61,955 bases of DNA from a virus: IMG/VR virus record IMGVR_UViG_3300032288_000863, positions 1-61,955 of that record; one strand, written 5' to 3'. The notes beneath the pieces were generated by a model, which was given only the letters and a program-made list of their open reading frames with translations, had not been told where the DNA came from and made no database searches. Position numbers and translations under genes: made by a program. Of this stretch, positions 14,805-61,955 are shown in pieces. Position 1 is the first letter of the stretch; each line of letters opens with the position of its first letter.

Positions 14805-17800
14805 TTATACCGTATTGAACCCAAATTGTACGATGGGGAAACGCTGGGCAAGAGAGTTAGTCCCCTGTATCTCACTAAACGCTATTGCATTTGGCAGCGC
14901 TGTCGTAGACGCACTATAAAAGCCTTGCCCCAGCGTGAATTGCGCCGTTGCGTTTGAAGCTACACCAAAGCCCCCAGAGAAGTTGGTGTTGATCTGTGAG
15001 GCAAGATACTGCGAGAACGAACAGTTGGCACCGCCTGTCGTTGTCCTGACAACCTGTGCTATCCAGTACCGCCCGCCAGAAATCGACGTACTCCAGTTGT
15101 AGGTGAGGTTACGCCACCCGTGGTAAGACGCGCTGTTTGCCGTACCAGAGAAAGTTATACCTACACTGTTTGAAGTCGAATGTGCCAGAGATAGAGAACT
15201 TACGTTCCGTGAGTAAAGTCCTACCCAGTTAGATATGGTGAACGAGCCCGTCGAGTTAGCCGCGGCGGAGAAGTTGATCGGGACCGCGATGACGTTAACA
15301 GTCAGGTCCGGGAAGATATCCGGGTCCAGCGCTAGCGTGCCTTGACCAACCGCTCCCACCACAAGCGGGTAGTCCCCGTGCGGGGAATACCCTGAAGCTA
15401 TATATGGCCCGGCAACACTCGCTGTGATCTGGTTACTACCTGACATTCCAAACGTAACGCCGTTTGAGTTAGCGAACGAAACGGTGCCAGATGTGGCCGT
15501 CTGAGTCCCGGCTATAAGCGCTACTGCTTGTGCAGACAGCCCAATCGTACTGCCGTTAGAACTTAGGCTGATGTTGTTGCCAGCAGACAGGCTGGATGTA
15601 GCCGGTGCCGAGATAGCAATCTGAGACCCGTTGGTCCCTGAGAGCGTGATGTTCACACCGGAGAAGTTAAGTGTGTTACCAGATGCAGTTGTGTTCCCCG
15701 ATGTAGCACCAGACAAGTTGGCATACATCGCCCCGCCGACACCGCCGGCTGTCTGGTTGATGGAGATTGTCGCCCCGTTTGAATCGGTAGATTGGCTAAG
15801 TGAGATGTTGTTCGTCCCAACGAAGACAATCCGAGAACCGCTTACTCCTGTAGAACCCGCCGTGTTACCGAGGTTAGACACGCCAGCGGAGTAGTTTGCG
15901 CCTATGACAGAAATTGTGCTGCCTGTCGTAGAAATCGTGATGTTGCTGCCTGCCGCCAGACTGGATACAGGCGGGGCAGAGATAGCGATCTGAGACCCGT
16001 TGGTCCCCGAGAGGGTGACGTTGATACCCGAGAAGTTAAGGGTGCTGCCAGACGCCGTGGTATTACCCGACGTATTTCCTGACAGGTTGGCGTACATAAC
16101 TCCACCGCCACCGGGAGCGGCGACAGAGATAGCGAGACCGGCGGAGTTAAGCGTGACAGAAGCGTTGGTAGCGGATGTACCTGTACCTGCATAGCCTGCA
16201 GCATTAAGGCTGAGACCTGAACTATTAACCGTCCACGTGACATTAGTTTGGGCCGTATTGAGCCCAACGGCATCATTAGACGCTCTGGCAGTGGTGAGAT
16301 ATGCCCCCGCCGACTGAAGCGCCGTGGTGATGTTCGACGCCAGACCAAACGTAATAGAAGAGCCGTTAGTGGAGGAGGACAGACTCGACCCCACGTTAAG
16401 ACTGATAGCGCCGGAGCTACCGTTAACGGAAGAGACATACGCCGTCGGCACCGTAGGCACGGTGTAAGACGCAATGACAGAACCGCCCGAGTTAGAGAAC
16501 GTAACGCCGTTAGAGTTGGCGAAGTTCAGCGTCTGGAACGTACTAGAACCACCAGACGCGGAGAACGCTTGGTTAGATTGAGATGTTAAATAGTTAGCGT
16601 TCGCGGACTGAAGCGCTGTAGTGATGTTCGACGCCAGACCAAACGTAATAGAAGAGCCGTTGGTAGAAGAAGACAGGCTTGATCCTACGTTTAGGCTGAT
16701 CTGGCCCGAAGACCCGTTGACGTTGGAGACGTAAGAAGTTGGAACAGTCGGGACTGTGTAACTTGCTGTGATCTGGCTGCTACCCGACATCCCAAACGTA
16801 ATACCGTTTGAGTTGGCAAAGTTAACCGTCCCGGAAGTCGCCGTCTGCGTACCCGCAGCGGCAGCGATACCCCCGCCACCAGCAGCGGCAGTCAGATAAG
16901 CAGGTACGCCAAGGCTAAGGCCCGCCGTATTCAAAGTTCCTACAACTGCCGTACCCGCAGTAGTCGTGCTGGTAAAGCCTGTACCCGCGATGTTTCCTGA
17001 CGCTTGAGTCTGGACAGACTGAGAGAAGCTAGCTGTGATCTGGTTACTACCAGACATTCCGAACGTGACGTTATTGGAATTGGCAAAGTTAACCGTTCCG
17101 GAAGTGGCGGTCTGAGTCCCGCCTGCGAGGGCTACAGCTTGTGCAGATAACCCGATGGTGCTGCCGTTAGAACTAAGGCTAATATTGTTTCCAGCAGAAA
17201 GGCTAGATGTGGCTGGAGCAGAAATAGCAATCTGCGAGCCATTAGTACCCGACAACGTAATGTTTACGCCAGAGAAGTTGAGCGTGCTTCCCGAAGCGGT
17301 TGTATTGCCAGATGTAGCGCCGGACAAGTTAGCGTACATAGCAGCGGCTGCGGCCACCGACGCAGTAATCTGGTTACTACCAGACATTCCAAACGTAACA
17401 CCGTTGGAATTGACAAAGTTTACCGTACCGCTAGTGGCTGTCTGCGTGCCTGCGCCAAGTGCAGCGGCTTGGGCCGAGATACCAATAGTTGAGCCGGTGC
17501 TGGAAATAGCGATGTTGTTGCCATTGGATAGGCCAGATTGCGGCGGAACAGAGATAGCAATCTGCGAGCCATTAGTACCCGAAAGAGTGACGTTAATACC
17601 CGACAGGTTAAGTGTGCTGCCTGACGCCGTGGTGTTCCCGGTCGTAGCGCCGGAGAGGTTTGCATAAACAGGAAGTGCCGTGGGAACAGTGTAGCTAGCC
17701 GTGATCTGGCTGCTATTAGACATCCCAAACGTGATGCCATTTGAATTAGCAAAGTTAATTGTTCCGCTGGTTCCTGTTTGCGTACCTGCGGCAGCGGCGA

Positions 17801-18893
17801 TACCGCCGGCAGCGCCTCCAATAACAGAGATTGTGCTACCAGAAGTCGAAATCGTAATGTTCGCGCCAGCCGCAAGGCTCGATACAGGCGGCGCAGAGAT
17901 CGCAATCTGAGATCCATTGGTTCCCGACAGGGTGACGTTGATACCCGACAGGTTGAGTGTACTTCCCGATGCTGTGGTATTGCCGGAGGTATTCCCCGAC
18001 AAGTTAGCGTACATGGCAGCGGCGGCAGCGACAGATGCGGTGATCTGGTTGCTACCCGACATTCCGAACGTCACGCCGTTGGAATTGACGAAGTTTACAG
18101 TGCCGCTGGTCGCCGTCTGAGAACCCGCACCCAGTGCTACAGCCTGAGCAGAGATACCAATAGTCGAGCCGGTATTAGAGATGGCGATGTTGTTGCCGTT
18201 AGAGATTCCAGACGTAGCAGGGCCAGAAATCGCAATCTGAGACCCATTGGTCCCCGAAAGTGTGACGTTGATACCGGAAAAGTTAAGAGTACTACCTGAC
18301 GCCGTAGTGTTACCTGACGTATTGCCCGACAGGTTAGCGTACATAACCCCGCCGCCACCGGTAGCAGCAGTCGTCAAGTAAGCAGGGATACCAAGACTCA
18401 AACCCGCTGTGTTCAGCGTCCCTACAACAGCGGTCCCCGCCGTGGTCGTACTGGTAAATCCCGTACCGGCTATGTTTCCCGAAGCCTGAGTCTGAACGGT
18501 TTGGGTTGTGAGATAGTTGCTGTTAGCTGACTGAAGCGCCGTGGTGATGTTCGACGCCAGACCAAACGTAATAGAAGAGCCGTTAGTGGAGGAGGACAGA
18601 CTCGACCCCACGTTAAGACTGATCTGACCTGACGATCCGTTGACGTTGGATACGTATGAGGTCGGAACTACAGCGTTCGACCCGCTGATAACAATCGTCC
18701 CACCGGTTCCTGACAGGCTGACGTTGCCCGCCGCTTGAAGTATGACGTTGGTCCCGCTGACGGTGCTGGCACCGAGCGTGTTGCCTGACAGGGTGTAGTA
18801 CTGATTATGGGCCGAGTTCCAGTCACTAGGACGAACAATATTGGTGTTCGTCCCGTCAGGGATTGGGTTGGTGAAAACGTGTGATATAGCCAT
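14805..18893 (-). CDS. Giant repetitive tail fibre/adhesin (1,362 residues)
   Basis: The N-terminus (AISHVFTNPIPDGTNTNIVR, then PSDWNSAHNQYYTL) is a virion-anchoring segment I recognise from other phage fibres. Residues about 60-1,120 are almost only Ser, Gly, Thr, Asn, Ala, Ile and Val, in imperfect repeats of about 90-110 residues. YANLSG blocks occur six times, GTQTATSGTVNFANSNG blocks six times and NGSSGQISLNVGSSL blocks three times. The last 200 residues are non-repetitive with Trp, Tyr and Phe and likely form the receptor-binding tip. There is no protease or pectate-lyase motif. This is the largest fibre of the genome and is followed by modifying-enzyme genes. Confidence 0.75.
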   Translation of the reverse strand: MAISHVFTNPIPDGTNTNIVRPSDWNSAHNQYYTLSGNTLGASTVSGTNVILQAAGNVSLSGTGGTIVISGSNAVVPTSYVSNVNGSSGQISLNVGSSLSSSTNGSSITFGLASNITTALQSANSNYLTTQTVQTQASGNIAGTGFTSTTTAGTAVVGTLNTAGLSLGIPAYLTTAATGGGGVMYANLSGNTSGNTTASGSTLNFSGINVTLSGTNGSQIAISGPATSGISNGNNIAISNTGSTIGISAQAVALGAGSQTATSGTVNFVNSNGVTFGMSGSNQITASVAAAAAMYANLSGNTSGNTTASGSTLNLSGINVTLSGTNGSQIAISAPPVSSLAAGANITISTSGSTISVIGGAAGGIAAAAGTQTGTSGTINFANSNGITFGMSNSSQITASYTVPTALPVYANLSGATTGNTTASGSTLNLSGINVTLSGTNGSQIAISVPPQSGLSNGNNIAISSTGSTIGISAQAAALGAGTQTATSGTVNFVNSNGVTFGMSGSNQITASVAAAAAMYANLSGATSGNTTASGSTLNFSGVNITLSGTNGSQIAISAPATSSLSAGNNISLSSNGSTIGLSAQAVALAGGTQTATSGTVNFANSNNVTFGMSGSNQITASFSQSVQTQASGNIAGTGFTSTTTAGTAVVGTLNTAGLSLGVPAYLTAAAGGGGIAAAAGTQTATSGTVNFANSNGITFGMSGSSQITASYTVPTVPTSYVSNVNGSSGQISLNVGSSLSSSTNGSSITFGLASNITTALQSANANYLTSQSNQAFSASGGSSTFQTLNFANSNGVTFSNSGGSVIASYTVPTVPTAYVSSVNGSSGAISLNVGSSLSSSTNGSSITFGLASNITTALQSAGAYLTTARASNDAVGLNTAQTNVTWTVNSSGLSLNAAGYAGTGTSATNASVTLNSAGLAISVAAPGGGGVMYANLSGNTSGNTTASGSTLNFSGINVTLSGTNGSQIAISAPPVSSLAAGSNITISTTGSTISVIGANYSAGVSNLGNTAGSTGVSGSRIVFVGTNNISLSQSTDSNGATISINQTAGGVGGAMYANLSGATSGNTTASGNTLNFSGVNITLSGTNGSQIAISAPATSSLSAGNNISLSSNGSTIGLSAQAVALIAGTQTATSGTVSFANSNGVTFGMSGSNQITASVAGPYIASGYSPHGDYPLVVGAVGQGTLALDPDIFPDLTVNVIAVPINFSAAANSTGSFTISNWVGLYSRNVSSLSLAHSTSNSVGITFSGTANSASYHGWRNLTYNWSTSISGGRYWIAQVVRTTTGGANCSFSQYLASQINTNFSGGFGVASNATAQFTLGQGFYSASTTALPNAIAFSEIQGTNSLAQRFPIVQFGFNTV
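15430..18660 (-). repeat. Mosaic repeats within the giant fibre gene
   Basis: About 3.2 kb of the fibre gene consists of a few module types in shuffled order rather than a simple tandem array. The modules are YANLSG/TLNFSGINVTLSGTNGSQ, a GNNI or ANI linker, TATSGTVNF/NGVTFGMSGSNQ, and GSSGQISLN/FGLASNITTALQSA. Copies differ mainly at synonymous sites, but stretches of 25-40 bases are identical, enough for homologous recombination. Confidence 0.75.
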
Positions 18894-31950: not shown

Positions 31951-34596
31951 TTACTCCTTTTTGTCAGAAGATTGTTTACTTTTTTGAGGTTTAACTTCTT
32001 CCTCTTCCTCTTCTTCCTCGTCCTCCTCTTCCTTCGGAGCTGACATCCCCAGCTTGATACCCTCGCGCATCTGGTTAGCTTCTTCCCGATCTTTCTCAAG
32101 CCCGAGACGCATCCCCTCACGCATCTGGGTAGCATCATCACGATCTTTGGCAAGCCCCAGTTTTAGTCCATCGCGCAGCGAATTAGCCTCAATCTGCTCA
32201 CGCTTGATCTCATAGTCGCGCTCCATCTGCTCCTGCTTCAACTGAAGCTCCCGGTCCATCTGCTCACGTTTGAACTCGTAGTCGCGCTCCATCTGCTCCT
32301 GCTTCAACTGAAGCTCCCGGTCCATCTGCTCGCGCCGGAACTCAAGCTCCTGCGTCACTCGCTGCATGTCAGACTGGGCTTTCTGCTGCTCGATCTGCAC
32401 TTGCTGCTGCTTGATCTGAAGCTCTTGCTGCTGCATCTGAATGACAGGATCTTGTGCCTGTTGTTGCGCCTGCATCTGCTGTACTTGCTGCTGTGACTGC
32501 TGCAACTGTTGTTGACCAGCCTGCGCCATCATCGCAGAAAGCGTGCTCTCTACCTCAGCAGGCAGTTCCTCATCTGACGGAGGCAGCGTGAGACCAAGCT
32601 GAGACTCGATCTGCTGACGGTATTCAAACGCCACATGCTCCGTGATGTGGTCCTGTAGCGCCGCCATGATCTGCTGCGCCCGGGGGTTTTGCCCGATTTT
32701 CTGCTGGATCATGGGGTCTTGCATCATGGCGTTGTGTACCGCGATATGCGCGGTATGGTCTTGGTGCAGGAACGCTTTCACAGGCTCGCCCGTCAGGGCG
32801 CGTGCGTTTTCTGTCACGGGGTCCATCGGCTTGATATCGTCCTTCATCGGGACAAGTTTTGCCGCATTCTTGATACCCAACACATTCAACATGCCGCGAT
32901 GAAGCTCGGGCAAGTCGTAAATATCGGGGGCCATCTGTGCCATCTGGATGACGGCTTGATACTGCACGATCCGCTGCGCCATTGTGGCCGCGTTGGGGTC
33001 GGACACCGGCAAAATGTCGATGTGCTCGTAGTCCGTCTTCTTCGCTTTCGGTGTCGCCGTCTCCGGCTCGTACCCGTAGGAGTCCTCCGAGTAGTCCCGG
33101 ATAATCTCCGCAAGGAGCCTAAGCTCCTGCTTCATCGTGTAGTGGATCCGCGCCTGAACCGCAGAGAGTGGTTTTAGCTGCCGCTCCAATATCGCCAGTG
33201 TCGTGCCGACAGGCGCTTGGGAACTCATGTCACTGATCTTGACATCTGCCGTCGCGGCAAATCGGCGACCGTCCTCAATGATGCTGCCCAGCAACTGGAG
33301 CAGAGTCTGGCTAGGCTCCTTATAGGGAAGGGGCAGGATGCTATCCCGAATGGTCCCCGAGCCTACGTCTACGTCCCGGAATTCACCGGGGGAGATCGGT
33401 GTGTCATCCCCTTTGATCCTGAGACTCCGCGACTTGAGCCCTCCCGGCAGGTTAGACAGCGTACCGGCGTCTACAAGTTGACGGGTCAACGACGTAGCGG
33501 ACTTAGCGAAATTCCCGATCAGGTGGAACAGACCGAAGCCATATGAGCCAAAGCCGGGAATGTACTGATAGTGCACGAAGTGCTGACGCTTCAGTCGGAG
33601 ATCATCATCCTCCCGCCAGTTGCGCCGTATCGCCAGCACATCATTAGACCCTTTTATCAAGGTCACGACATACGGCAGGGCGATGCCCTCTTCATCTTCT
33701 GGGTCAAGGCTAAGATCCGCGTGCGCCTCGTACAGGGTGTAGCGCTCATCATGGATGTCGCTGAACCCCGTCTCGCTATCTTTTGCCTTCTTTATATCAC
33801 TGCGAGTCTTGTCGGGGTCAGGCAGGTCGATGTCCCGATAGAACCCTGCCTGCTGCAACTTCTTGATTTCATTCTTGGTTTTACGCATCACGTGGGTGAC
33901 GCGGTGGCACATATAGATATCAGACACGCCGTAGGGCAGCACGACGTCTTCGGCGGGAATAAACACCGCGATCTGTCGCCCAAGGCTTGGGTCATAATAG
34001 ACTTTCTTGAACGCAGAGCCTGTCGCGGGCAGGTTCCACAGCATCTTCTCATGCTCCGGGCGGTACTCAATCATCCGCTCCGTAAGCTGATAGTTCATAT
34101 CCTCCTTGACTCGCTCCGCCGCCTCCAGCTTCTCCGGCGTCTCCTTGCCAATAATCTTTGTCGCTACAGGCCCCCCAGACGGGAATGTCTCCATCACCGT
34201 CTCGGCTTGGAACCGGACCACTGCCTCGGTAATCATGGGATGGACCACGCCACACGCCCCACTCCACGGCTCCATCCGCTCCTCATACTTGAGGCCCATC
34301 AACTTCAGGCCCTCGACGTATGTCTCCTCCCAGTCTTTGCGACTGGCAAGGTCATTCTCAATATCTCCAGCCAACTCCTCGGCCATCGACATGAGTGCCG
34401 ACTCATCCATCGTCTCGGCCAAGTTGTCGCTGAAATCCCCTATCTCTTTTCCGGGCGCTATCTCAATCTCCATACCTCCGGCTTTTATACTCACCGCCTC
34501 CGGGTCTTCAATCTCAATCTCCAGCGCGGGAGCCTCATCCGCCAGCAGATCAGCCAGTCCAGACGGGGCACGGTTTAACGCTTTGTCGATGCTCAT
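31951..34596 (-). CDS. Portal protein
   Basis: The protein has 881 residues. The N-terminal region (DWEETYVEGLKLMGLKYEER, EPWSGACGVVHPMITEAVV) and FIPAEDVVLPYGVSDIYMCH match the large portal proteins of many uncultured podoviruses; a wing/stem region follows. The C-terminal 200 residues are an exceptional Gln/Glu/Arg coiled coil with five REQMDRELQLKQEQMERDYE-type units, ending in an Asp/Glu/Lys-rich tail. The portal forms the ring through which DNA enters and leaves the head. The long C-terminal coil could be a barrel reaching into the capsid, as in P22 gp1. Confidence 0.85.
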   Translation of the reverse strand: MSIDKALNRAPSGLADLLADEAPALEIEIEDPEAVSIKAGGMEIEIAPGKEIGDFSDNLAETMDESALMSMAEELAGDIENDLASRKDWEETYVEGLKLMGLKYEERMEPWSGACGVVHPMITEAVVRFQAETVMETFPSGGPVATKIIGKETPEKLEAAERVKEDMNYQLTERMIEYRPEHEKMLWNLPATGSAFKKVYYDPSLGRQIAVFIPAEDVVLPYGVSDIYMCHRVTHVMRKTKNEIKKLQQAGFYRDIDLPDPDKTRSDIKKAKDSETGFSDIHDERYTLYEAHADLSLDPEDEEGIALPYVVTLIKGSNDVLAIRRNWREDDDLRLKRQHFVHYQYIPGFGSYGFGLFHLIGNFAKSATSLTRQLVDAGTLSNLPGGLKSRSLRIKGDDTPISPGEFRDVDVGSGTIRDSILPLPYKEPSQTLLQLLGSIIEDGRRFAATADVKISDMSSQAPVGTTLAILERQLKPLSAVQARIHYTMKQELRLLAEIIRDYSEDSYGYEPETATPKAKKTDYEHIDILPVSDPNAATMAQRIVQYQAVIQMAQMAPDIYDLPELHRGMLNVLGIKNAAKLVPMKDDIKPMDPVTENARALTGEPVKAFLHQDHTAHIAVHNAMMQDPMIQQKIGQNPRAQQIMAALQDHITEHVAFEYRQQIESQLGLTLPPSDEELPAEVESTLSAMMAQAGQQQLQQSQQQVQQMQAQQQAQDPVIQMQQQELQIKQQQVQIEQQKAQSDMQRVTQELEFRREQMDRELQLKQEQMERDYEFKREQMDRELQLKQEQMERDYEIKREQIEANSLRDGLKLGLAKDRDDATQMREGMRLGLEKDREEANQMREGIKLGMSAPKEEEDEEEEEEEEVKPQKSKQSSDKKE

Positions 34597-34607: not shown

Positions 34608-37055
34608 CTAGTAATACGCCGCCTTTCTAGGCGCGTACTGGTAAGGCAAGTCTACCTCATCGGACGGAAGAGTAATAAACCCTCCCTGACGGAATCTCAT
34701 TAATGCAAGTGTGGTGGCATCCACCAAGTCGTCATTTCTCCCGGCCGGAAAGTCGTTGCACTCCTCTATGACCTCCCGCGCCCAGCGCCTGTCGGGCGCC
34801 CACACGATCCCGGCAGAGAAGAGATCAGACACAGCGTTCACCCGGCTTATCTTGTCCTGCCCCCTGCCCGGGGTGAACTCCCCGAGCGGTATGCCCATCC
34901 GCCTCATCTCTTGATACAGCGCCGCACCGTTGGACTTCTTCTCTACGATGAATGCGTCTGGTTGCCACTCCTTATACTGCTCCAGCACCATCTGCTTCAA
35001 CTCCGGGAACTCCAGACGTTTCTTGATGGCGTTCAGCAGGATGATGTTGTGGTTGTTTGTCTCTTCATTAAAGAAGATCCCCCACGTCAGGAGCGCATTG
35101 TAGTCTGCCCGGTTAGACGTTTCTTGGGCAGCGTCTAGGGCCATAATAATGAAGTCACACTTGGGTGGGTCGTCTTTGTCCCATATCTGCCACCATTCCC
35201 TCTTTATTAGCGCCCCTTCCTCTGCCGTGGGCTGCTGCATGTACTGCGCCTGCCAGTACCGGGGGTCCATTCCGGCCTTCTTCGCCATCAACTCCTCCAT
35301 CGGCCAGAAGTCAGGCCACAGAGGCTTTTCATTTAATATGGCAGGGAACTCGACGACCTCCCACTCGTCAGCGTCATCATTTCTCGTCATGTGGTCGATA
35401 ATCTGCCCGGTCAGGTCCAGCTTGGACCACCGCGTATTGTGGGATACCACACCGTTAGCAATAAAGTTTTCCGTGCGCTCTACTTGAAGATCAAAAACTT
35501 CTGCTTCGCCGTCAGGAAGGATCGTCGTTATCTCGTCTAACGTGACGCTGTAAGTATTCAGCAGCGAGTCGCAAGACCTCGGGGGTTTTGCCATATCCGA
35601 CTGCAAGGTTACAGTCGTTGCAAAGCAGCCCTCGGACCTGTCCGGTATCGTGGCAGTGGTCGATACAGAGTTTTCCCCCCCAATGAGTACGGGTGTTGAT
35701 TTTAGAAGGTACTTGACCACAGACATCGCAACGGTTGCCTCTCTCTGCAACCATACTGTTGTACTGCTCAAGCGTGATGCCATACCGGCTTTTGACTCTA
35801 GCCGCACGCCGGTTCTCCGGACTGTAGCTTCTTCCTCTATACCCTTCTGCCCAACGCTGTTTGTTGTAATGCGTGCGACAAAGCCCTTTACTTTTAGCAG
35901 GCTCTGTACAACCTTCTTGAATGCAGATCTTACCTTTCCATTTACCGTGGTGTCCGACCGGATGTTTGACAGCATCGGGATTTTTTTGCCGGTACCACTC
36001 CCTTGCTCTGCACGCTCCACACAATTGCTGTTTTTTTCTTGCTTGTACGCGGTTGTTGCATCCTTCAATGCTACAAGCGACATACCCGGTTTCAGGTCTT
36101 TCAGTCTGATCCATTGCTGTTCTCCGTCAGTGTCTACAAGAAACGGATGTCTCTCGTTTGCCCGGAGAATTCTACCAGATCGTGTTTGTACTTGGTAGAT
36201 CGTATCAATACCATTTGACTTGTGGTTAAGTACCCGTGATGTGGTTATGCGTCCATCTTCGTATGTCGCTATTTCATCACCGGGGCGCAGGTCTTTAAGC
36301 GGAGTCTCGCTTCCATCAGGGCGTAACACCCCTGTATCCCCCGTCATGCACATCACCACGATGATCGCGCCTCCCGGCATCAGTCGCTGGATGGGGCCTG
36401 ACTGGAACCACTCCCATGCGGGGGCGAAGACATCGGGCCTTCCTTGCTTGGCCTCCTGCTCTGAGTGAGGATCATCAATAATAAATAGATCAGCACCGCG
36501 CCCAGCGAGAGCACCGCCCACACCAATAGCAAAATACTCTCCGTTAAAATTAGTGCCCCACCGAGAAGCGGACTTACTGTCTGCTTGAAGCTCCACTTGC
36601 GGGAAAATATCATTGTACAGATCGCTCCCGACAAGGTTCCGCACCCGTCTACCGAAGTTCACTGCCAGATCGGCAGTGTGCGAGGCCATGATGATCTTCT
36701 TCTGGGGGAACTTCCCCAGAAACCACGCTGGAGCAAGGTAGGAAATCATCTCTGACTTGCCGTGACGGGGGGCAATGTTGACGATCACCCGCTTTTTCCT
36801 GCCCGCCGCAATTTCTTCAAAGATTTTGGCAAGTTTTCGGTGATGGGGCCCCACGATATAGCCGGGGTACACGTGGTTAATGAAGTCTAAAAAGGACTCA
36901 CGTCCCTTTACTTGCGTGATTTGCGACTGATACTGCTTTAAAAGCTCCGCTACGCGACGTTTTTCCTTGTCCGGGAGGTTGGGCAGGGCGTTTTTTAGCC
37001 TTTGTATGTCAGCAAGTGACAGTTTTGGGCCAGCCGGGGGGTTTTGCGGCGTCAT
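34608..37055 (-). CDS. terL: Terminase large subunit, interrupted by an in-frame intein
   Basis: The 815-codon frame encodes a 510-residue terminase (residues 1-235 joined to 541-815) plus a 305-residue intein. ATPase motifs are IAPRHGKS (Walker A, about 94-101) and LFIIDDPH (Walker B, about 190-197). After the intein comes TRWSKLDLTG, the conserved coupling motif. The nuclease domain has acidic sites in MALDAAQ, VEKKSNG and GRNDDLVDA. It would cut and package phage DNA at the portal. The start overlaps the small-terminase stop by 4 bases (ATGA). Splicing must occur for function, because the intein splits the TRW motif from Walker B. Confidence 0.9.
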   Translation of the reverse strand: MTPQNPPAGPKLSLADIQRLKNALPNLPDKEKRRVAELLKQYQSQITQVKGRESFLDFINHVYPGYIVGPHHRKLAKIFEEIAAGRKKRVIVNIAPRHGKSEMISYLAPAWFLGKFPQKKIIMASHTADLAVNFGRRVRNLVGSDLYNDIFPQVELQADSKSASRWGTNFNGEYFAIGVGGALAGRGADLFIIDDPHSEQEAKQGRPDVFAPAWEWFQSGPIQRLMPGGAIIVVMCMTGDTGVLRPDGSETPLKDLRPGDEIATYEDGRITTSRVLNHKSNGIDTIYQVQTRSGRILRANERHPFLVDTDGEQQWIRLKDLKPGMSLVALKDATTAYKQEKNSNCVERAEQGSGTGKKIPMLSNIRSDTTVNGKVRSAFKKVVQSLLKVKGFVARITTNSVGQKGIEEEATVRRTGVRLESKAGMASRLSSTTVWLQREATVAMSVVKYLLKSTPVLIGGENSVSTTATIPDRSEGCFATTVTLQSDMAKPPRSCDSLLNTYSVTLDEITTILPDGEAEVFDLQVERTENFIANGVVSHNTRWSKLDLTGQIIDHMTRNDDADEWEVVEFPAILNEKPLWPDFWPMEELMAKKAGMDPRYWQAQYMQQPTAEEGALIKREWWQIWDKDDPPKCDFIIMALDAAQETSNRADYNALLTWGIFFNEETNNHNIILLNAIKKRLEFPELKQMVLEQYKEWQPDAFIVEKKSNGAALYQEMRRMGIPLGEFTPGRGQDKISRVNAVSDLFSAGIVWAPDRRWAREVIEECNDFPAGRNDDLVDATTLALMRFRQGGFITLPSDEVDLPYQYAPRKAAYY
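35436..36350 (-). other. Intein in terL (305 residues)
   Basis: The first residue is Cys (TGC at 36350), with block A as CMTGDTGVLRPDG and block B as RANERHPFLV containing the splicing His. The end is VFDLQVERTENFIANGVVSHN followed by Thr as the +1 nucleophile. All canonical residues for protein splicing (Cys1, block-B His, His-Asn, +1 Thr) are present. The insertion lies exactly before the conserved TRW motif of the terminase. About 130 residues form the splicing domain. The 170 or so residues between look like low-complexity shadow translation, because the DNA there encodes a nuclease in another frame. Confidence 0.88.
35512..36114 (-). CDS. HNH/endonuclease VII-type homing nuclease, overlapping the intein in another frame
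   Basis: This 200-residue protein is read in a different frame of the same strand and lies wholly within the intein DNA. GGAG sits 7 bases before ATG 36114, so it can be translated on its own. It has two N-terminal Cys clusters (CSIEGCNN...CGAC and CIQEGCTEPAKSKGLCRTH), then CDVCG, CIDHCHDTGQVRGLLCNDCN and a C-terminal helix. DHxHxTGxxRGxLCxxCN is the active-site and zinc signature of the endonuclease VII family. As a homing endonuclease it would cut intein-less terL genes. The overlap with a frame that must stay open for splicing is very unusual. Confidence 0.85.
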   Translation of the reverse strand: MDQTERPETGYVACSIEGCNNRVQARKKQQLCGACRAREWYRQKNPDAVKHPVGHHGKWKGKICIQEGCTEPAKSKGLCRTHYNKQRWAEGYRGRSYSPENRRAARVKSRYGITLEQYNSMVAERGNRCDVCGQVPSKINTRTHWGGKLCIDHCHDTGQVRGLLCNDCNLAVGYGKTPEVLRLAAEYLQRHVRRDNDDPS

Positions 37056-42510: not shown

Positions 42511-43812
42511 ATGAGTAACGTAGCCATTGATAACATCGCGCTTGCCGAGCAAGTGCTGAAGAAAGCCCACGTGCGCCTGCTGCGCCATCGCAAGACCTAT
42601 CTCTACAGTGGCGTGCTGCTGCTGGGGGACAGCATGGTGGACGACAGCAAGGGGCCGACTGCGTGCACCGACGGACTGAACAAGTACTACAACAGCAACT
42701 TCCTCGCATCACTGGGCGCGATCAGTAAGGTGTCAGGCCTTGTGCTGCACGAAGCGTTGCACGTGTTCCTCAAGCAGTTGCAGCGGCACAAGGACTTGTG
42801 GGACGAGGACCGCAAGCTCGCTAACGCAGCCGCTGACTATGTGGTCAATGCCATCATCAAGGACATCGAGAACGAGGACCGCGCGGCGCTGGCGGCAGCT
42901 AACAACAAGGCAGACCCCGTGGTGATACTGCCCGACGGTGCGCTGTACGATGCCAAGTTCATCAACTGGTCAATGCGTCAGGTGTACGACTTCCTTAAAC
43001 AAGCCAAGCAAGCTAACAAGCCGCAGCCACAGGACGACGAGGGCAAGGGCGACAAGGACAAGGACGAGGACGGGTGCGACACGGTCTCGGTCGATGGCAA
43101 GGAGTACAAGCTCGACACGATGGACGAGCACGACACGTCAGGCGTCGAGGTGCTGACTGACGAGGAGGTCAAGGAGATGACCGCCAAGATCGACGCAGCC
43201 ATACAGGAGGCGGGGTTGCTCGCCGGGTTGTCCAGCCAGAAGCTGCCGCGTGCCGTGCAGGAGTTGTTCGAGCCAGAGGTGCGCTGGGAGGACGTGATGC
43301 AGGAGTTTTTCGTGAGCCATGCCCGGGGCAACAGCGAGTACACATTCTCCAAGTTCAACCGTCGCCGCATTGTTGACGAGATTTACAGACCACACACATA
43401 CAACGAGAAGCTGGGCCGCGTGGTGCTGGGCATCGACACGTCATGCTCCATCTCACAAGAGCAGATCAGCCGCGTGATTAACCATACAGTGTCACTGTGT
43501 GAGCAGTGCAGCCCGAACGAGTTGCTCGTGTTGTGGTGGGATACGTCAGTGCACGGTGAGCAGCGGTTCAGCGAGGAGAGTTTCGGTAACCTGCGCCATG
43601 CACTCAAGCCGGTGGGGTTCGGTGGCACGCGTGCAGGATGCGTCAGTGAGTATCTGACAACTAACAATATCCACGCTGACTGCATCGTGATTTTCACCGA
43701 CGGGTACGTAGAAGACAACGTCAAGTGGGAAGTATCTGCGCCGACGTTGTGGGTGGTGAAAGGCAACGAGCGGTTTGTTCCGCCCGCTGGCAAGATCGTG
43801 AAGTTCAAGTAA
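42511..43812 (+). CDS. Metallopeptidase-like plus VWA domain protein (DUF2201/CobT-like)
   Basis: The protein has 433 residues with GAAGGAG before ATG 42511. An N-terminal helical domain carries HEALH (80-84), with NAAADYVVN about 20 residues later, as in putative zinc-peptidase domains joined to VWA. A very acidic Lys/Asp linker (about 170-220) separates it from a C-terminal VWA-like domain whose metal site is DTSCS (309-313), with GGT (371-373) and FTDG (395-398). The pair of MoxR ATPase and VWA protein is a recurring module for ATP-driven assembly or unfolding. The substrate in this phage is unknown. Confidence 0.8.
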   Translation: MSNVAIDNIALAEQVLKKAHVRLLRHRKTYLYSGVLLLGDSMVDDSKGPTACTDGLNKYYNSNFLASLGAISKVSGLVLHEALHVFLKQLQRHKDLWDEDRKLANAAADYVVNAIIKDIENEDRAALAAANNKADPVVILPDGALYDAKFINWSMRQVYDFLKQAKQANKPQPQDDEGKGDKDKDEDGCDTVSVDGKEYKLDTMDEHDTSGVEVLTDEEVKEMTAKIDAAIQEAGLLAGLSSQKLPRAVQELFEPEVRWEDVMQEFFVSHARGNSEYTFSKFNRRRIVDEIYRPHTYNEKLGRVVLGIDTSCSISQEQISRVINHTVSLCEQCSPNELLVLWWDTSVHGEQRFSEESFGNLRHALKPVGFGGTRAGCVSEYLTTNNIHADCIVIFTDGYVEDNVKWEVSAPTLWVVKGNERFVPPAGKIVKFK

Positions 43813-56276: not shown

Positions 56277-56478
56277 GAAGGAGTTGGTGGGGGAGCCTAT
56301 CTGGGGCTTCCCCTTTGAGTGGATGAGTATAGGGCAAAGTTTTTTTGTCCCTACGCTCAAACCCGCCACGATGATTTACGTTCTGGATACGCGGGCTAAG
56401 GACGCCAAGATAAAAATAAAAGCCTACACTTCTATGAAGGATGGCGTCCTTGGCGTCCGGGTCTGGCGCACGGGCTAG
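56269..56478 (+). CDS. Small hypothetical protein at the convergent junction
   Basis: This 69-residue protein starts at ATG 56269, overlapping the primase stop by 8 bases. The middle (SFFVPTLKPATMIYVLDTRA) looks like a small alpha/beta fold. Its TAG stop lies within CTAG, which on the other strand is also the stop of the giant virion gene, so the two operons abut tail to tail without a terminator. Family not recognised. Confidence 0.6.
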   Translation: MDEKELVGEPIWGFPFEWMSIGQSFFVPTLKPATMIYVLDTRAKDAKIKIKAYTSMKDGVLGVRVWRTG

Positions 56479-59400
56479 TTAATCCCTGCATCTGCTTGAG
56501 CCTTGAGTGCTTCTACACTTTGTACAAACTGACCCTGTATATATTCTTTCTGCGACTTGATCTCACGTAGCATCAATTGTTTTTCTTGCTCCCGCACACC
56601 TGAATAGACCCCTGCCCCAGCATTGATCGCTTTTTCCTGCGACTGAAGTTGTTTAAGTTGTCCGTTGATCGTGCTCTTGTAGAGTTCTACCATCAAATAA
56701 TCCTGCGGATGAGCACGGATGTATTCTTCAAACTGCGGGCGATCCTTGTAAGCACTTAGCAACTCCTGTTTCTTTTCCATCTCAGTGCGGAGATCCGAGA
56801 ACTTACGTGCGTCAACACTGGACCGCTTACCTACAAAGCTGCCTACAAGCGGTAACTCAGTTTTGATGTCGAAGTTTTTCTCCCCGCCAGCAATGTCCAT
56901 AGTGCCTTTTACAAATCCAGCAAACTTGCCTACGGCGTCAAGATAGTTACCAACAAAGAAAGCAGCCGTTTGTGGGTCTATTTTTAAAGGGGTATCCCAC
57001 CCTGCGGTTTCATCCATAAGCCAAGAACTAAAGTCCCGCGCCCACTTAGGCACGTGAAGCCCAGCCGAATACGCGTCGCCGTATTTGTTAACGCGGTCGT
57101 TGTAAATCTCCCTGCCTAAACCGTCTGAGTTGATTACAAACTCTACAATAGGCTTCACCGCCGTAAATGCCACGGTATCCAAGATAAACGCCCCCGGTTT
57201 ATCAAGAGGTGAAAAACGCGGCGCAGGAATAGGCAGGAACGAGTCAAGCGTGATCGGTACAAGGTTTTCGATCATCTCCTTGCCGCTTTGGTGCCCGTTC
57301 ATCCATGCGGCCATTTGCGCTCCAAACGCAGCAAATGCTCCGCCACCAAAACCCCACGGGATTTGTAAGAATTCGTTACCTTCTCCAGCAAACTTCATGG
57401 GAACTCGCAATGCACGAGTCCACATAGACATATCATCCGCTGCTACTTTGTTCCGCCCTTGCTGATCTTTATCTGATGTACTCAGAGCCATCTGATATGC
57501 AAGCATACCCGCTCCAGCAAGCAGGCCACCCATCAAATATGCGTTACGGCTTTCCCGCGCAAAATTAGCTTTGAACTCCGCCCGTGCAGCTTCAGCCCGA
57601 GCATATCTGGGGTCAGTCGGATCAGTTACCTTGAGCAGTGGTGATCCACGCTCCATAGCGCTTTCCACTGACTCAAACGCGGGGCGCATTACGTCCATTA
57701 CCCGGACAGCGGAAGTAAGCGATGGGCGCATAAACATATACAGCGAACCAAGTTCTCGCCCGTACTTACCCACTTGCTCGTAGTTAAACAAGTTTTTGGT
57801 AAATGCAGCAGCTTCTTCTTTGACGGCTTTCTGGAACACTGGATCGTTTATGTTCAGTCCACGAGACTTGCCTTGTGAGGCAAGTTCGCTCTTGATAACC
57901 CCGTAAGTAGATGCACGACTGACAAATTCAAACGCGTCAGCCCATGTAGTGAAAAGCTGATCTACCTGTTCTTTAGTGCGTACAAAGCGGCTTTTGCCAA
58001 CTGCGTCTTTTTCAAGCGTGCCTATATCAAATGACTTCTGAAATGAGCCTCGCCCACCTTCTTCCACAAGATACTCATACGCGTTTTTAGCAAATTGCCC
58101 ACGCATATTCTTGATGGCAGCAAAATCACCCTTGTTGTACAGCCACGATATCTTCATGGCACGGGTAAACGCCCCACTTTCCAATATGTTCCACGCCACC
58201 GATCCGATAATCTTAGGCGCTATGGTAGGGCCAAACATGCCCGCGGAGTTGTAGGCGTTAGTCAGGGTGTCACGAACAAAGTTAAACGGTGCAAACCCCA
58301 AGTTATAGAAGGTGTGCATCCTGCCCATCAGGTGGGTGACACTATTTATTTTGTTCAGTGCATAGTTGATGTCGGTGTTAAATCCATTCAACCCTTCAAT
58401 CAACCGTTTATCACGGAGCGCATAAACCTCCGTGCTACCATCAGGCATGTGATGGAAAAACACGTTCTGTTTACTTAAATCTTCGCGTTGCACCCCATTA
58501 AATTTATCGGCAAACGTAACTTTCTCTATTAGTTTACCATCGAGGTCTTTGTCTCTAATCTGGTTTTTGATGGACTCGGTAATACCGTCACTTGCGGAGC
58601 GTCCAGACGCACGATGTAGGTCTTGTACGATCTGGAGCATCGGGTTGTTGATGGCGGTGCTGCGGCCCATTGCTTTGTCTTCAAGCTGCCTGAACTGCGT
58701 ACCCGCACGTGAGCTACTGTCCAGATCAAACGAAATATCTGCTGTACCGCTGTCCATACCTTTAAACGGTACGTAGTACTTGTAGCCATAGAGTTCCTTC
58801 AGGTTATCTACCGGCTGCGTCCAGTACTTACCTTCTTTCTCCATCGAAATACGCGTAGCGTTTATGGCATCGATGGCATCAAATACTTCTTGTATCTCCG
58901 GTCCATACCTACGCATTTCACGCGCAAATGTCCTGCGCCATGCAGCAAGACTGGCGTTGTCATATCCAACAACTCTGTAGTGGTTAGAATTGATATCCAG
59001 CGCATCGGTCGCTTTTGATGACACCCGGTCGCCTCTGCTTTTACCCCCCAGTTTTGCGTAACGCTGAGCAAGGGTTTCAAGCTGCTGCCGGATGCGGCGG
59101 GCTTCACCGTTAGTTACAAGATCACGGTTCTGCGTCACATAATCAAATAATGCGTCACGGTAAGCCGCAGGGCTGATAGGCTGGTTATTCAACGTCAGAA
59201 CCGGGGCGTCATCAAGCGGCACTATCTCCAGATATTTGAAGGTGCGCTTTTCCAGTTCGTTCAGCGCCATGCGAAGCACGCCAAGATGCTCCAAGGCGTC
59301 CTCAGTAGACATCTTTACTTTGTTGGCGTAATTCTCAACTTTGTCACGCAGTGTGTTTACCAACGGTGTAACACGGCTTTTTTCATTAGCCTCTTGCTTG

Positions 59401-61955
59401 CCCATAGCAAGCGTCATTCTTTCGTTGGTGTTGTTGCCGTCGATCCCGCGCCGAAGCTGATTTGCCCTCCGCAGTGCTTCTTCCTGCGTCAGGAAATACC
59501 GACGATGGTTCTGAAGATTGAACGAAAGATCGTCAAAGCCTTTACTACTAAACGCATGTTTTATGTAGCTAATCAGGCCCGGGCGAGTGTTGGCAGTGGG
59601 GGATATAAACGTGCCTTTTGTACTACCCGGAGTCTGCATAGAAGGCGTGCGTATCTGCTGTACTGTAGGAGCACGACGGCGACGTGCAACGCGGCCCGGG
59701 CGGCGGGCAGCGAGAGGTTCAACTTCCACTCCGGCTTTGGGTATGGTGAGAATGTCACCGACAGATTCAATCGTGCGGAGTAGAGCGTTGTCCATCGTAT
59801 CGGCAGCTTCAACACGCTCCATCTCCTGTGCGCGGCGCAAACCTTTTCCCGGCTCCAACGTGCGCGTAGGTGAAGGCTCTTCCGTCGCTTTTGCCCGGGC
59901 AAACTTGTCCAGACCAACCATCTTGGCAACGGCAATCGTAAAGCTATCCCATGCGGAACGAAGTTTCTGACGCGCAGTTTTGGGTGCACTAAAGTTGAAC
60001 AGGGCGCGTTGGAACCCTTCGTTTGTCATCGCATAGGTAATGAACTCGTACTCGTTTTCATACGCGTTCTTAAACTTTTCTCTCAGCTTTGATTTAGTCT
60101 CGTTGTATATATCAACGATTTCTTTTGCGCCCTGCTTTTGTATCGAGGTGAGTTCATCTGCTTTTTTAGACAGAAACTTCTTCATCACCCCGACAGTAGC
60201 CGAGTGCACCATCTCATGTAGGATGACGCGATCCGTCAGACCGGCTTCTGTGAAGTAGAACGCGTTGGTCTTGGGGTTGTACTCTGCAAGTTTGCCTTCG
60301 CGCTTCAGGCGCTCAACAACAGCTTTGTCTTGACCTTTAAGATTGGCGTTACCTTCAACAAATACTTTGGCCCCGCCAAATGCTGTCTTCTTGAAAGGTG
60401 ATTCTCTTTTTGGAGTTTCAAGAACGTAGGGCAAGTACCGGTTTTCGGGTTTCGCTGGTTCTGGTGCAGGTTTGATAAACTCAATCCGCCCCGTCTCCCG
60501 GTTGTACGTCGCACGCCCTTTTGCGACAGGTGCCATGCGCCCAACTTGGGGCTTAAAGTCTTCTCTAAGCCTGCCTGCTTCTGTCAGCCTGCCTTCGGCA
60601 TCGGTGAAATCATATTTCGTTAAGTCGATATCGGACATGATTGCCCGTTCAACTTCTTTAGCAAGTTCAGCGTGTAAAGTAGGCGCTTCACGTTTATCTA
60701 TACCGCGCTCTCTAGCGATCCGCCTAACTTCAGCGTCAATCAGCGGCCTACGATCATCTCTAACTTCCACGACGTTCAGCAGTTTGTCAGCCAGCCAACT
60801 GAGCGGGCTCTTGCCGCTGGACTCTTCTCGCAGCCGATACAGAGCTTCGCCAAGATTGCCCGAACGCAGTGACTCCGCTACGGAATCGTATCTGGCAGAT
60901 GCACCTTCTTCAGGAGTTTCAACCGGCTCAATGTCCCGTGCCCGCTTCACTTCAACGCGCGGAGCGACAGGTTCTTGTACCCGCTCAACAGAGAGCTTTG
61001 CCTGCTCAGGCGTAGGAGCAAACACATCTGGCGAAGTCGGTTGTGCGCTACGAGGGACCGGCTCACCTACGGGTATGGTAGGTGGTTTTTCTACAACAGG
61101 GACTTCAGGGGGTTTAATTGCTTCTACTACAGGAACCTCAACAGGCTCCTCTACTTTCAGTGCAGGCTTGCCCTTTCTTTTTGGAGCAGCAGCCAAAATA
61201 GCAGGCTGTCCAACATTCTCCACTCGTCCTGCGATATCGACTTCAGGGACTCCGGCGGGGGGCTGTCCCCTTTGTACAGGTGGTTCCACGCTTCCTCTAA
61301 CTGGGACAGCGACAGGTTCTCTAGGCTCGATGTCAACTCTTCCAAGCTGATTGATATTACTTTCACTGCCTGTCTCCGTAGTGACGGGTTTGAACGGCGT
61401 GACATCCGGCGGTGCAATGTATGTACGGGCACGGTTTGCATCTGGCTTAGATAGTATGTCGTTCTTGGTCAGGGCACCGAGAAGATTGCCCACTTGCAGA
61501 GGGGGTAGATCACCAATAATGGGAGTGATCGCAGCACGGAAATTTTCTGGCGTAATTGGAGTACCAGCTTCGTACATATCTTTGACAAGCGAAGCTCCAG
61601 CCTGAAATACAGGACTCTCAGGCGACGTAATTCTTTCTGCCGCAGGTTTCTTTTCGCCGCGCTTGCGTACAACAGGAGGTGGCACTTCACCGGGGGGAAC
61701 AGCGGCTACTTCAGCAGCGGCTGGGGGTACGGGAGTTAGTTCTTCTGGGGGGCGCTCAACAAGTTCCCCCAGCAGTTGCTCCCCGGTGTAAGGAGTAGTT
61801 GTAGGCTCCGCTGCTTCTTCCGCAGGTTTGGCGATTTCTTCTGGCTTAACAAGATTTTCACGGTTGAGAAATAGTTTAACGGTCTTACCACCGCCCGTGC
61901 TTCCTACAAGATCCCCGCGCTCGTACAGGCCACGCCTAATATCACTGGCTTCAGA
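56475..61955 (-). CDS. Giant polyvalent virion protein, main part with zinc-protease motif and LPD38-like region
   Basis: This is 1,827 codons of a gene that starts at 1095 across the window ends. A Pro/Val/Glu-rich linker region (about residues 400-700 of the whole protein) leads to a domain with HEMVH near residue 942 (60204-60218), a possible zinc metallopeptidase. A long helical middle follows. A conserved block around residue 1555 (INYALNKINSVTHLMGRMHT, then LGFAPFNFVRDTLTNAYNSA) resembles the LPD38 domain of polyvalent proteins. A hydrophobic helix (YLMGGLLAGAGMLAYQMAL) lies near 1834. Such proteins are thought to be packaged and injected. A single protein with protease and membrane features suits delivery of an effector, but that is inference. 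Confidence 0.75.
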   Translation of the reverse strand, partial: SEASDIRRGLYERGDLVGSTGGGKTVKLFLNRENLVKPEEIAKPAEEAAEPTTTPYTGEQLLGELVERPPEELTPVPPAAAEVAAVPPGEVPPPVVRKRGEKKPAAERITSPESPVFQAGASLVKDMYEAGTPITPENFRAAITPIIGDLPPLQVGNLLGALTKNDILSKPDANRARTYIAPPDVTPFKPVTTETGSESNINQLGRVDIEPREPVAVPVRGSVEPPVQRGQPPAGVPEVDIAGRVENVGQPAILAAAPKRKGKPALKVEEPVEVPVVEAIKPPEVPVVEKPPTIPVGEPVPRSAQPTSPDVFAPTPEQAKLSVERVQEPVAPRVEVKRARDIEPVETPEEGASARYDSVAESLRSGNLGEALYRLREESSGKSPLSWLADKLLNVVEVRDDRRPLIDAEVRRIARERGIDKREAPTLHAELAKEVERAIMSDIDLTKYDFTDAEGRLTEAGRLREDFKPQVGRMAPVAKGRATYNRETGRIEFIKPAPEPAKPENRYLPYVLETPKRESPFKKTAFGGAKVFVEGNANLKGQDKAVVERLKREGKLAEYNPKTNAFYFTEAGLTDRVILHEMVHSATVGVMKKFLSKKADELTSIQKQGAKEIVDIYNETKSKLREKFKNAYENEYEFITYAMTNEGFQRALFNFSAPKTARQKLRSAWDSFTIAVAKMVGLDKFARAKATEEPSPTRTLEPGKGLRRAQEMERVEAADTMDNALLRTIESVGDILTIPKAGVEVEPLAARRPGRVARRRRAPTVQQIRTPSMQTPGSTKGTFISPTANTRPGLISYIKHAFSSKGFDDLSFNLQNHRRYFLTQEEALRRANQLRRGIDGNNTNERMTLAMGKQEANEKSRVTPLVNTLRDKVENYANKVKMSTEDALEHLGVLRMALNELEKRTFKYLEIVPLDDAPVLTLNNQPISPAAYRDALFDYVTQNRDLVTNGEARRIRQQLETLAQRYAKLGGKSRGDRVSSKATDALDINSNHYRVVGYDNASLAAWRRTFAREMRRYGPEIQEVFDAIDAINATRISMEKEGKYWTQPVDNLKELYGYKYYVPFKGMDSGTADISFDLDSSSRAGTQFRQLEDKAMGRSTAINNPMLQIVQDLHRASGRSASDGITESIKNQIRDKDLDGKLIEKVTFADKFNGVQREDLSKQNVFFHHMPDGSTEVYALRDKRLIEGLNGFNTDINYALNKINSVTHLMGRMHTFYNLGFAPFNFVRDTLTNAYNSAGMFGPTIAPKIIGSVAWNILESGAFTRAMKISWLYNKGDFAAIKNMRGQFAKNAYEYLVEEGGRGSFQKSFDIGTLEKDAVGKSRFVRTKEQVDQLFTTWADAFEFVSRASTYGVIKSELASQGKSRGLNINDPVFQKAVKEEAAAFTKNLFNYEQVGKYGRELGSLYMFMRPSLTSAVRVMDVMRPAFESVESAMERGSPLLKVTDPTDPRYARAEAARAEFKANFARESRNAYLMGGLLAGAGMLAYQMALSTSDKDQQGRNKVAADDMSMWTRALRVPMKFAGEGNEFLQIPWGFGGGAFAAFGAQMAAWMNGHQSGKEMIENLVPITLDSFLPIPAPRFSPLDKPGAFILDTVAFTAVKPIVEFVINSDGLGREIYNDRVNKYGDAYSAGLHVPKWARDFSSWLMDETAGWDTPLKIDPQTAAFFVGNYLDAVGKFAGFVKGTMDIAGGEKNFDIKTELPLVGSFVGKRSSVDARKFSDLRTEMEKKQELLSAYKDRPQFEEYIRAHPQDYLMVELYKSTINGQLKQLQSQEKAINAGAGVYSGVREQEKQLMLREIKSQKEYIQGQFVQSVEALKAQADAGIN

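Follow-up and report, generated by a model that had tools for sequence, protein, structure and literature searches.

An Endonuclease VII-Type Gene Read Out of Frame within the Intein of a Phage Large Terminase

The window analyzed here, that is, the whole stretch of DNA examined, comprises the 61,955 bases of an IMG/VR virus record. Its minus strand encodes a large terminase (TerL) that, as the original prediction held, is interrupted just before its TRW motif by an intein with intact splice residues; the coordinates proved exact (Table 1), and Pfam recognized Intein_splicing (E 8e-18) together with the terminase domains in the TerL frame. The flanks of the intein read ...GGAIIVVM / TRWSKLDL, the exteins total 510 amino acids, and among named TerLs without an intein the closest have 44-52% identity to that of the window.

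Table 1. Features of the terminase intein and of the overlapping nuclease gene
Feature	Position	Strand	Basis
TerL precursor ORF, 815 aa including intein	34608..37055	-	Terminase_6N/6C (Pfam); phrog_38 terminase, E 3.4e-92
N-extein, TerL residues 1-235, ATPase part, ending ...IIVVM	36351..37055	-	Aligns with intein-free TerL
Intein, 305 aa, Cys1 to HN, class 1-type residues, +1 Thr of TRW	35436..36350	-	Pfam; family invariants
Hint splicing domain, N-terminal part, intein residues 1-98	36057..36350	-	AlphaFold2 pLDDT ~95; Foldseek to Npu DnaB 4o1r, Mtu RecA 2in9
Intein-frame shadow linker, residues 99-261, apparent passive read-through of nuclease gene	35568..36056	-	pLDDT ~30; identity 0.32 vs 0.29 expected
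Hint splicing domain, C-terminal part, intein residues 262-305	35436..35567	-	pLDDT ~95; conservation exceeds nuclease constraint
C-extein, +1 Thr of TRW to TerL stop	34608..35435	-	Junction contiguous, insert-free in 72 relatives
Endonuclease VII-type HNH ORF, 200 codons + stop, out of frame with TerL	35512..36114	-	Pfam; homologues; AlphaFold2 mean pLDDT 81.5, 91-94 across most of HNH region
HNH core, nuclease residues 150-175, CIDHCHDTGQVRGLLCNDCNLAVGYG	35590..35667	-	Invariant D152, H153, R161, N166, Cys pairs
GGAG Shine-Dalgarno-like site, 7 nt upstream of nuclease ATG	36122..36125	-	Sequence; codon bias
TGA stop, nuclease frame, 15 nt upstream of ATG	36127..36129	-	Sequence
Invariant intein Trp80 codon TGG; preceding A + TG = nuclease ATG	36111..36113	-	Same start place in 48/48 clusters

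All of the class 1 intein residues are present in the window copy (C1, H68, H304-N305, and the +1 Thr), and C1, N65, H68, D287, H304, and N305 are invariant across 43 intein clusters. The Hint fold was found in both halves of the intein by AlphaFold2 and Foldseek, with best matches to the Ssp and Npu DnaB and Mtu RecA inteins (TMt 0.77-0.88). As in class 1 inteins, the insert lies in frame at a conserved site of an essential gene, here TRW, and 72 loci are intein-free there; the window intein is predicted to be splicing-competent. Its first codons, TGC ATG ACG, repeat the host ATG ACG (Met-Thr) at the insertion site (36342-36353, minus strand), and a CMTG start is frequent in the family; the repeat is possibly a trace of insertion or of co-conversion.

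Within the same bases, on the same strand and in another frame, the original prediction had placed a complete 200-codon endonuclease VII-type HNH ORF with a GGAG site and a DHxHxTGxxRG motif, all of which we confirmed: Pfam assigns the ORF to Endonuclease_7 (PF02945, E 1.4e-18), and the motif reads DHCHDTGQVRG. The TerL frame is the nuclease frame +1, so that the two ORFs are two bases out of phase. Active-site and zinc residues (D152, H153, N166, C129, C132, C165, and C168) are invariant in the nuclease family. By sequence profile the nuclease resembles Hpy99I and T4 endonuclease VII. Hpy99I and T4 endonuclease VII also ranked first when the predicted fold was compared (probability 0.95-0.99), although the match is weak (E 0.003-0.14, TM <0.35). 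Named-phage sequences were left out of the alignments supplied to AlphaFold2. The nuclease had been located in the DNA that encodes the intein linker, which is correct for its middle, whereas ~14 codons at its start and ~20 at its end run into conserved sequence of the splicing domain.

When viral contigs were scanned, with the nuclease and TerL as queries, 86 nuclease-bearing loci were obtained (some contigs were fetched twice). All lie within the same TerL intein and in one phase, with no intein-frame stops and with 8-22 stops in the third frame. Grouped below 90% DNA identity, the loci form 48 clusters, five of which are named actinophages. The layout is thus common to every intact relative examined, and hence is not unique to the window phage; in no intact copy examined does the nuclease domain share a polypeptide with the splicing domain, as it does in bifunctional in-frame inteins. 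In all 48 clusters the nuclease starts at an ATG or GTG whose TG comes from the invariant Trp codon and whose first letter ends the intein codon before it. At the Gly codon that provides the Shine-Dalgarno site, 33 of the 48 clusters use GGA, compared with 13% of extein Gly codons. Nearly all environmental copies combine a GGAG-type site with the Trp-codon start; the five actinophage copies have no clear GGAG site. Since the frames overlap on one strand, ribosomes might instead shift from the TerL frame into the nuclease frame and produce a fusion, with no internal initiation. Such a route is extremely unlikely, because in the window a TGA in the nuclease frame precedes the ATG by only 15 nt, with GGAG between them, which favors internal initiation over a long frameshift fusion, and because start codon and spacing are conserved.

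How far the open second frame could be due to chance was assessed by redrawing synonymous codons for the nuclease protein and counting stops in the intein frame. For the window copy, 4.4 stops are expected under TerL codon usage (P(none) = 0.003), and under the nuclease family's own codon usage P(none) rises to 0.12. The earlier figure of ~7e-5, which took all codons as equally likely, was therefore overstated for one copy, and with P between 0.003 and 0.12 depending on codon usage a single copy is insufficient as proof. The +1 phase is, moreover, naturally stop-poor (~3 stops expected, compared with 14 in the other out-of-frame phase), as a stop there needs certain Leu, Ile, Val, or Met codons before particular next bases. 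It would thus be the out-of-frame phase open to a nuclease after few changes, with the Trp codon supplying a start.

Comparison among relatives is decisive. Over the 48 clusters, which are related by descent and do not amount to 48 independent tests, no intein-frame stop was observed where 142 were expected, and the out-of-frame phase is the same in every one. Third-frame stops were close to expectation (13.0 per copy observed, 13.9 expected), indicating that the simulation is calibrated. As a control we took free-standing endonuclease VII genes, among which none of 44 clusters was stop-free in the equivalent phase (mean, 4.7 stops). These comparisons give strong support to the proposal that the same bases encode a splicing-competent intein and, separately, a nuclease.

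Both readings were then compared with homologues by codon position, as the original prediction had suggested, setting the identity observed in the intein frame against that forced by the nuclease alone. As relatedness does not enter the z-scores of this test, we rely on the magnitude of the differences alone. Intein-frame identity was 0.62 over nuclease codons 1-14 (0.28 expected), 0.32 over codons 15-180 (0.29 expected), and 0.48 over codons 181-200 (0.23 expected). In the middle zone, nucleotide diversity tracks the codons of the nuclease, being 0.07-0.41 at positions 1 and 2 and 0.54-0.63 at position 3. At the ends of the overlap both readings are constrained, whereas the middle is the nuclease's own. 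The same zones appear in the AlphaFold2 model, whose confidence is high for the two Hint parts and low for intein residues 99-261 (Table 1). As modeled, the intein frame consists of two folded, conserved Hint parts and a predicted disordered, unconserved middle dictated by the nuclease.

These results bear directly on the idea that the second frame is open merely by chance or base composition, the intein being a plain mini-intein with a long linker. The single-copy probabilities and the stop-poor phase lend it what plausibility it has. Against it are the Pfam match and confident fold of the nuclease, the middle-zone diversity that follows nuclease codon positions where the intein frame is unconserved, and the conservation of the nuclease in 48 of 48 clusters. 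Chance opening is refuted by that conservation together with the free-standing control, and we assign it practically no probability.

A scan with the splicing domain showed that 514 viral contigs encode relatives. In the best 80 loci of that scan, the nuclease motif lies out of frame in most inteins of ~300 amino acids and in frame in none of them; a minority have no match to the strict motif pattern, several of them on contigs already classed by alignment. Among genome contigs, 120 pattern matches for splicing-domain relatives were obtained, none of them confirmed. The more distant splicing relatives in CcrSC, Stickynote, ME3, and a fecal phage were set aside as a different kind, occupying other sites or genes; two of them are without a nuclease, and one has an in-frame LAGLIDADG-like stretch. 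The TerLs of some relatives have a second insertion that ends in HN before Thr or Ser, at Walker A (L015, L033, L069, and L086) or at Walker B (L061 and L005). These insertions are ~305-345 amino acids long, with in-frame LAGLIDADG-like motifs (GLMDTDG), except for a short one in L005, and in-frame and out-of-frame designs are thus found together in one TerL gene.

Presence of the element is patchy, and its transfer is independent of the host gene, as for homing endonucleases. The 72 relatives with empty sites are contiguous over the junction, the nearest having 87-89% DNA identity across the 800-base joined site. Between the Gordonia phages Affeca and Nordenberg, exteins are 99% identical, splicing domains 72%, and nucleases only 48%; between the window and Affeca the order is reversed, with exteins 24% and nucleases 58% identical. 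Such discordance fits repeated arrival at one site.

Decay of the element was also seen. Fourteen distinct mini-inteins of 133-189 amino acids occupy the same TRW-type site (THW in one), and 13 of them retain recognizable pieces of the nuclease, out of frame and in the same phase. In one (L174), residues 1-44 of the nuclease survive at 70% identity; in another (L214), residues 136-185 survive at 78% identity, with a stop in the nuclease frame. The deletions preserve an open intein frame, the pattern to be expected of an essential splicing function and a dispensable nuclease. In a splicing-domain tree, which has few columns and is poorly resolved, the well-supported branches require no fewer than three transitions between full and mini; by parsimony the number rises to as many as ten. 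An intein of 225 amino acids (L237) is between full and mini in size, with an out-of-frame DHCHDTGKVR still visible. Relatives with a broken nuclease frame and intact splicing residues had been named in advance as evidence against the overlap; such copies do occur, but only as mini-inteins from which most of the nuclease is deleted, the decay expected of a homing element. The converse, an intact nuclease in a broken intein frame, was not seen among the loci examined.

Most HEN-bearing inteins are in-frame fusions, and two compensating indels in one of these could yield the layout seen here, the nuclease reading then being a dead, frameshifted remnant. We reject this origin as very unlikely: the loci examined include no in-frame version of the nuclease at this intein; the gene is equipped with a start and a Shine-Dalgarno site of its own and has a stop close upstream; and it is intact and constrained in 48 clusters, whereas copies that are dead look different, being truncated. 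Standard in-frame HEN inteins (LAGLIDADG or HNH) resemble the window element in that the nuclease region splits the Hint domain and in their homing life cycle; they differ in that nuclease and intein are one polypeptide, whereas in the window the nuclease is a separate product of another frame. In split inteins with a free-standing nuclease ("fractured genes"), the nuclease lies between two separate genes for the intein halves. There too it is unfused to the intein, but in the window TerL stays one ORF, which the nuclease overlaps.

The reading that we prefer, with a probability of about 0.86, is that of a mobile TRW-site intein with an overlapping, internally initiated, free homing nuclease. 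In this scheme a mobile intein would occupy the TRW site of TerL (ATPase coupling, C-motif), and the TerL frame would yield a Hint domain of the standard type, its two halves connected through a long disordered stretch. The 510-residue terminase would be restored by splicing, as may be expected from the splicing reported for its relative Chandler gp6 in the available text of PMC5050341. Ribosomes would start internally, at the Shine-Dalgarno site and the start derived from the Trp codon, to make a free endonuclease VII-type HNH homing enzyme, which would cut intein-free terL alleles at TRW, and repair would copy the element in. Selection on TerL would keep the shadow frame free of stops, and selection on homing would keep the nuclease frame; where the latter lapsed, deletions preserving the intein frame would leave mini-inteins. 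The empty sites, the discordant identities, and the nuclease fossils in mini-inteins fit this homing cycle.

HNH and endonuclease VII enzymes may be resolvases or nicking enzymes, so that homing is not obligatory, and this counts against the preferred reading, as does the want of a clear GGAG site in five actinophage copies. During packaging, T4 endonuclease VII resolves DNA branches, and in some phages terminases are assisted by HNH proteins. With T4 endonuclease VII and Hpy99I as its profile matches, the nuclease could accordingly be made and active as a resolvase or packaging-associated HNH protein lodged in the intein. We consider such a role unlikely, given the patchy presence of the element, the empty site in 72 relatives, and the movement of intein and nuclease between distant TerLs. 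In addition, the nuclease decays while splicing persists, which indicates that the phage does not need it.

The window element has relatives in a known system. The TerL6-f inteins of cluster B3/B4 mycobacteriophages (Chandler gp6 and Phlyer gp6) share its insertion site in the C-motif, before TRW, and their splicing domain is 64% identical to that of the window. In the available text of Kelley et al. (2016; PMC5050341), the Chandler gp6 TerL6-f intein is located in the C-motif and splices in a reporter in E. coli, and HEN domains are given as identifiable in TerL1-b and TerL1-c, with none listed for TerL6-f. We find the same out-of-frame endonuclease VII in these TerL6-f inteins, and the Chandler gp6 intein, which carries it, is a family member; the actinophage TerL6-f copies differ from the window in the clear GGAG site that they lack. 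Public annotation of the terminases of Phlyer, Chandler, Affeca, Nordenberg, and phi1_186018 holds no gene for the overlapping endonuclease VII, and the GenBank record of Vincenzo alone notes a "homing endonuclease in intein."

The closest precedent is the ShiLan insertion, an HNH read out of frame in a phage methylase whose host frame is kept open (Arsenault, Gosselin, and Gogarten 2025; PMC11855218); like that of the window, it is mobile. Its phase is the same, as derived from the positions given (a GTG start at bases 18-20 and a stop within the closing TAAC; PMC11855218), and its host-frame reading is poorly ordered, as is the window linker. The ShiLan nuclease starts at GTG with no ribosome site detectable, and its insertion is devoid of a splicing domain, whereas the window insert is a complete intein with a complete splicing domain, from which the host protein is restorable, and has a GGAG-type site and a Trp-codon start. 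In the available text of that article, a 2025 preprint on noncanonical actinophage inteins is cited for overlapping reading frames (PMC11855218). The preprint may describe the same layout, its title limiting the scope to actinophages. A literature search for out-of-frame nucleases in inteins, with coverage that did not extend to this preprint, returned nothing beyond the ShiLan work and one genome note in which an out-of-frame HNH in a methylase is mentioned.

Elsewhere in the window, a second nuclease of 433 amino acids (42511-43812, plus strand) matches phrog_1314 "HNH endonuclease" (1.6e-76) at a position unrelated to the intein. Just downstream of TerL, an 881-amino-acid ORF (31951-34596, minus strand) ends in Gln/Glu-rich near-repeats (QMDRELQLKQEQMERDYEFKR...) and an acidic tail, and has no Pfam match better than 0.068. 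Two ORFs on the minus strand, of 1362 amino acids (14805-18893) and 1736 amino acids (56475-61685), have no PHROG match at 0.001.

Judged across the sequences compared, the overlap is real and widespread, and appears to be a stable way to build a selfish element and no accident. We lean slightly toward the view that these elements form a class of phage intein of their own, distinct and widespread, whose homing nuclease is in every case encoded by a separate gene that overprints the linker, always in the same phase, and starts at an invariant Trp; they would represent a third, stable architecture next to in-frame and split inteins, one not described except (possibly) in actinophages. Protein splicing and homing would be joined in it in a third way, by full gene overlap, neither fused nor split. 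With TerL essential and the nuclease dispensable, the element offers a clean natural test of how overlapping genes persist and vanish, for which many copies and a ladder of decayed mini-inteins are available. The nuclease, predicted to be free and internally initiated, would be easy to express and test, and other inteins without a recognized nuclease, as Chandler gp6 was, may hide one missed by frame-bound annotation.
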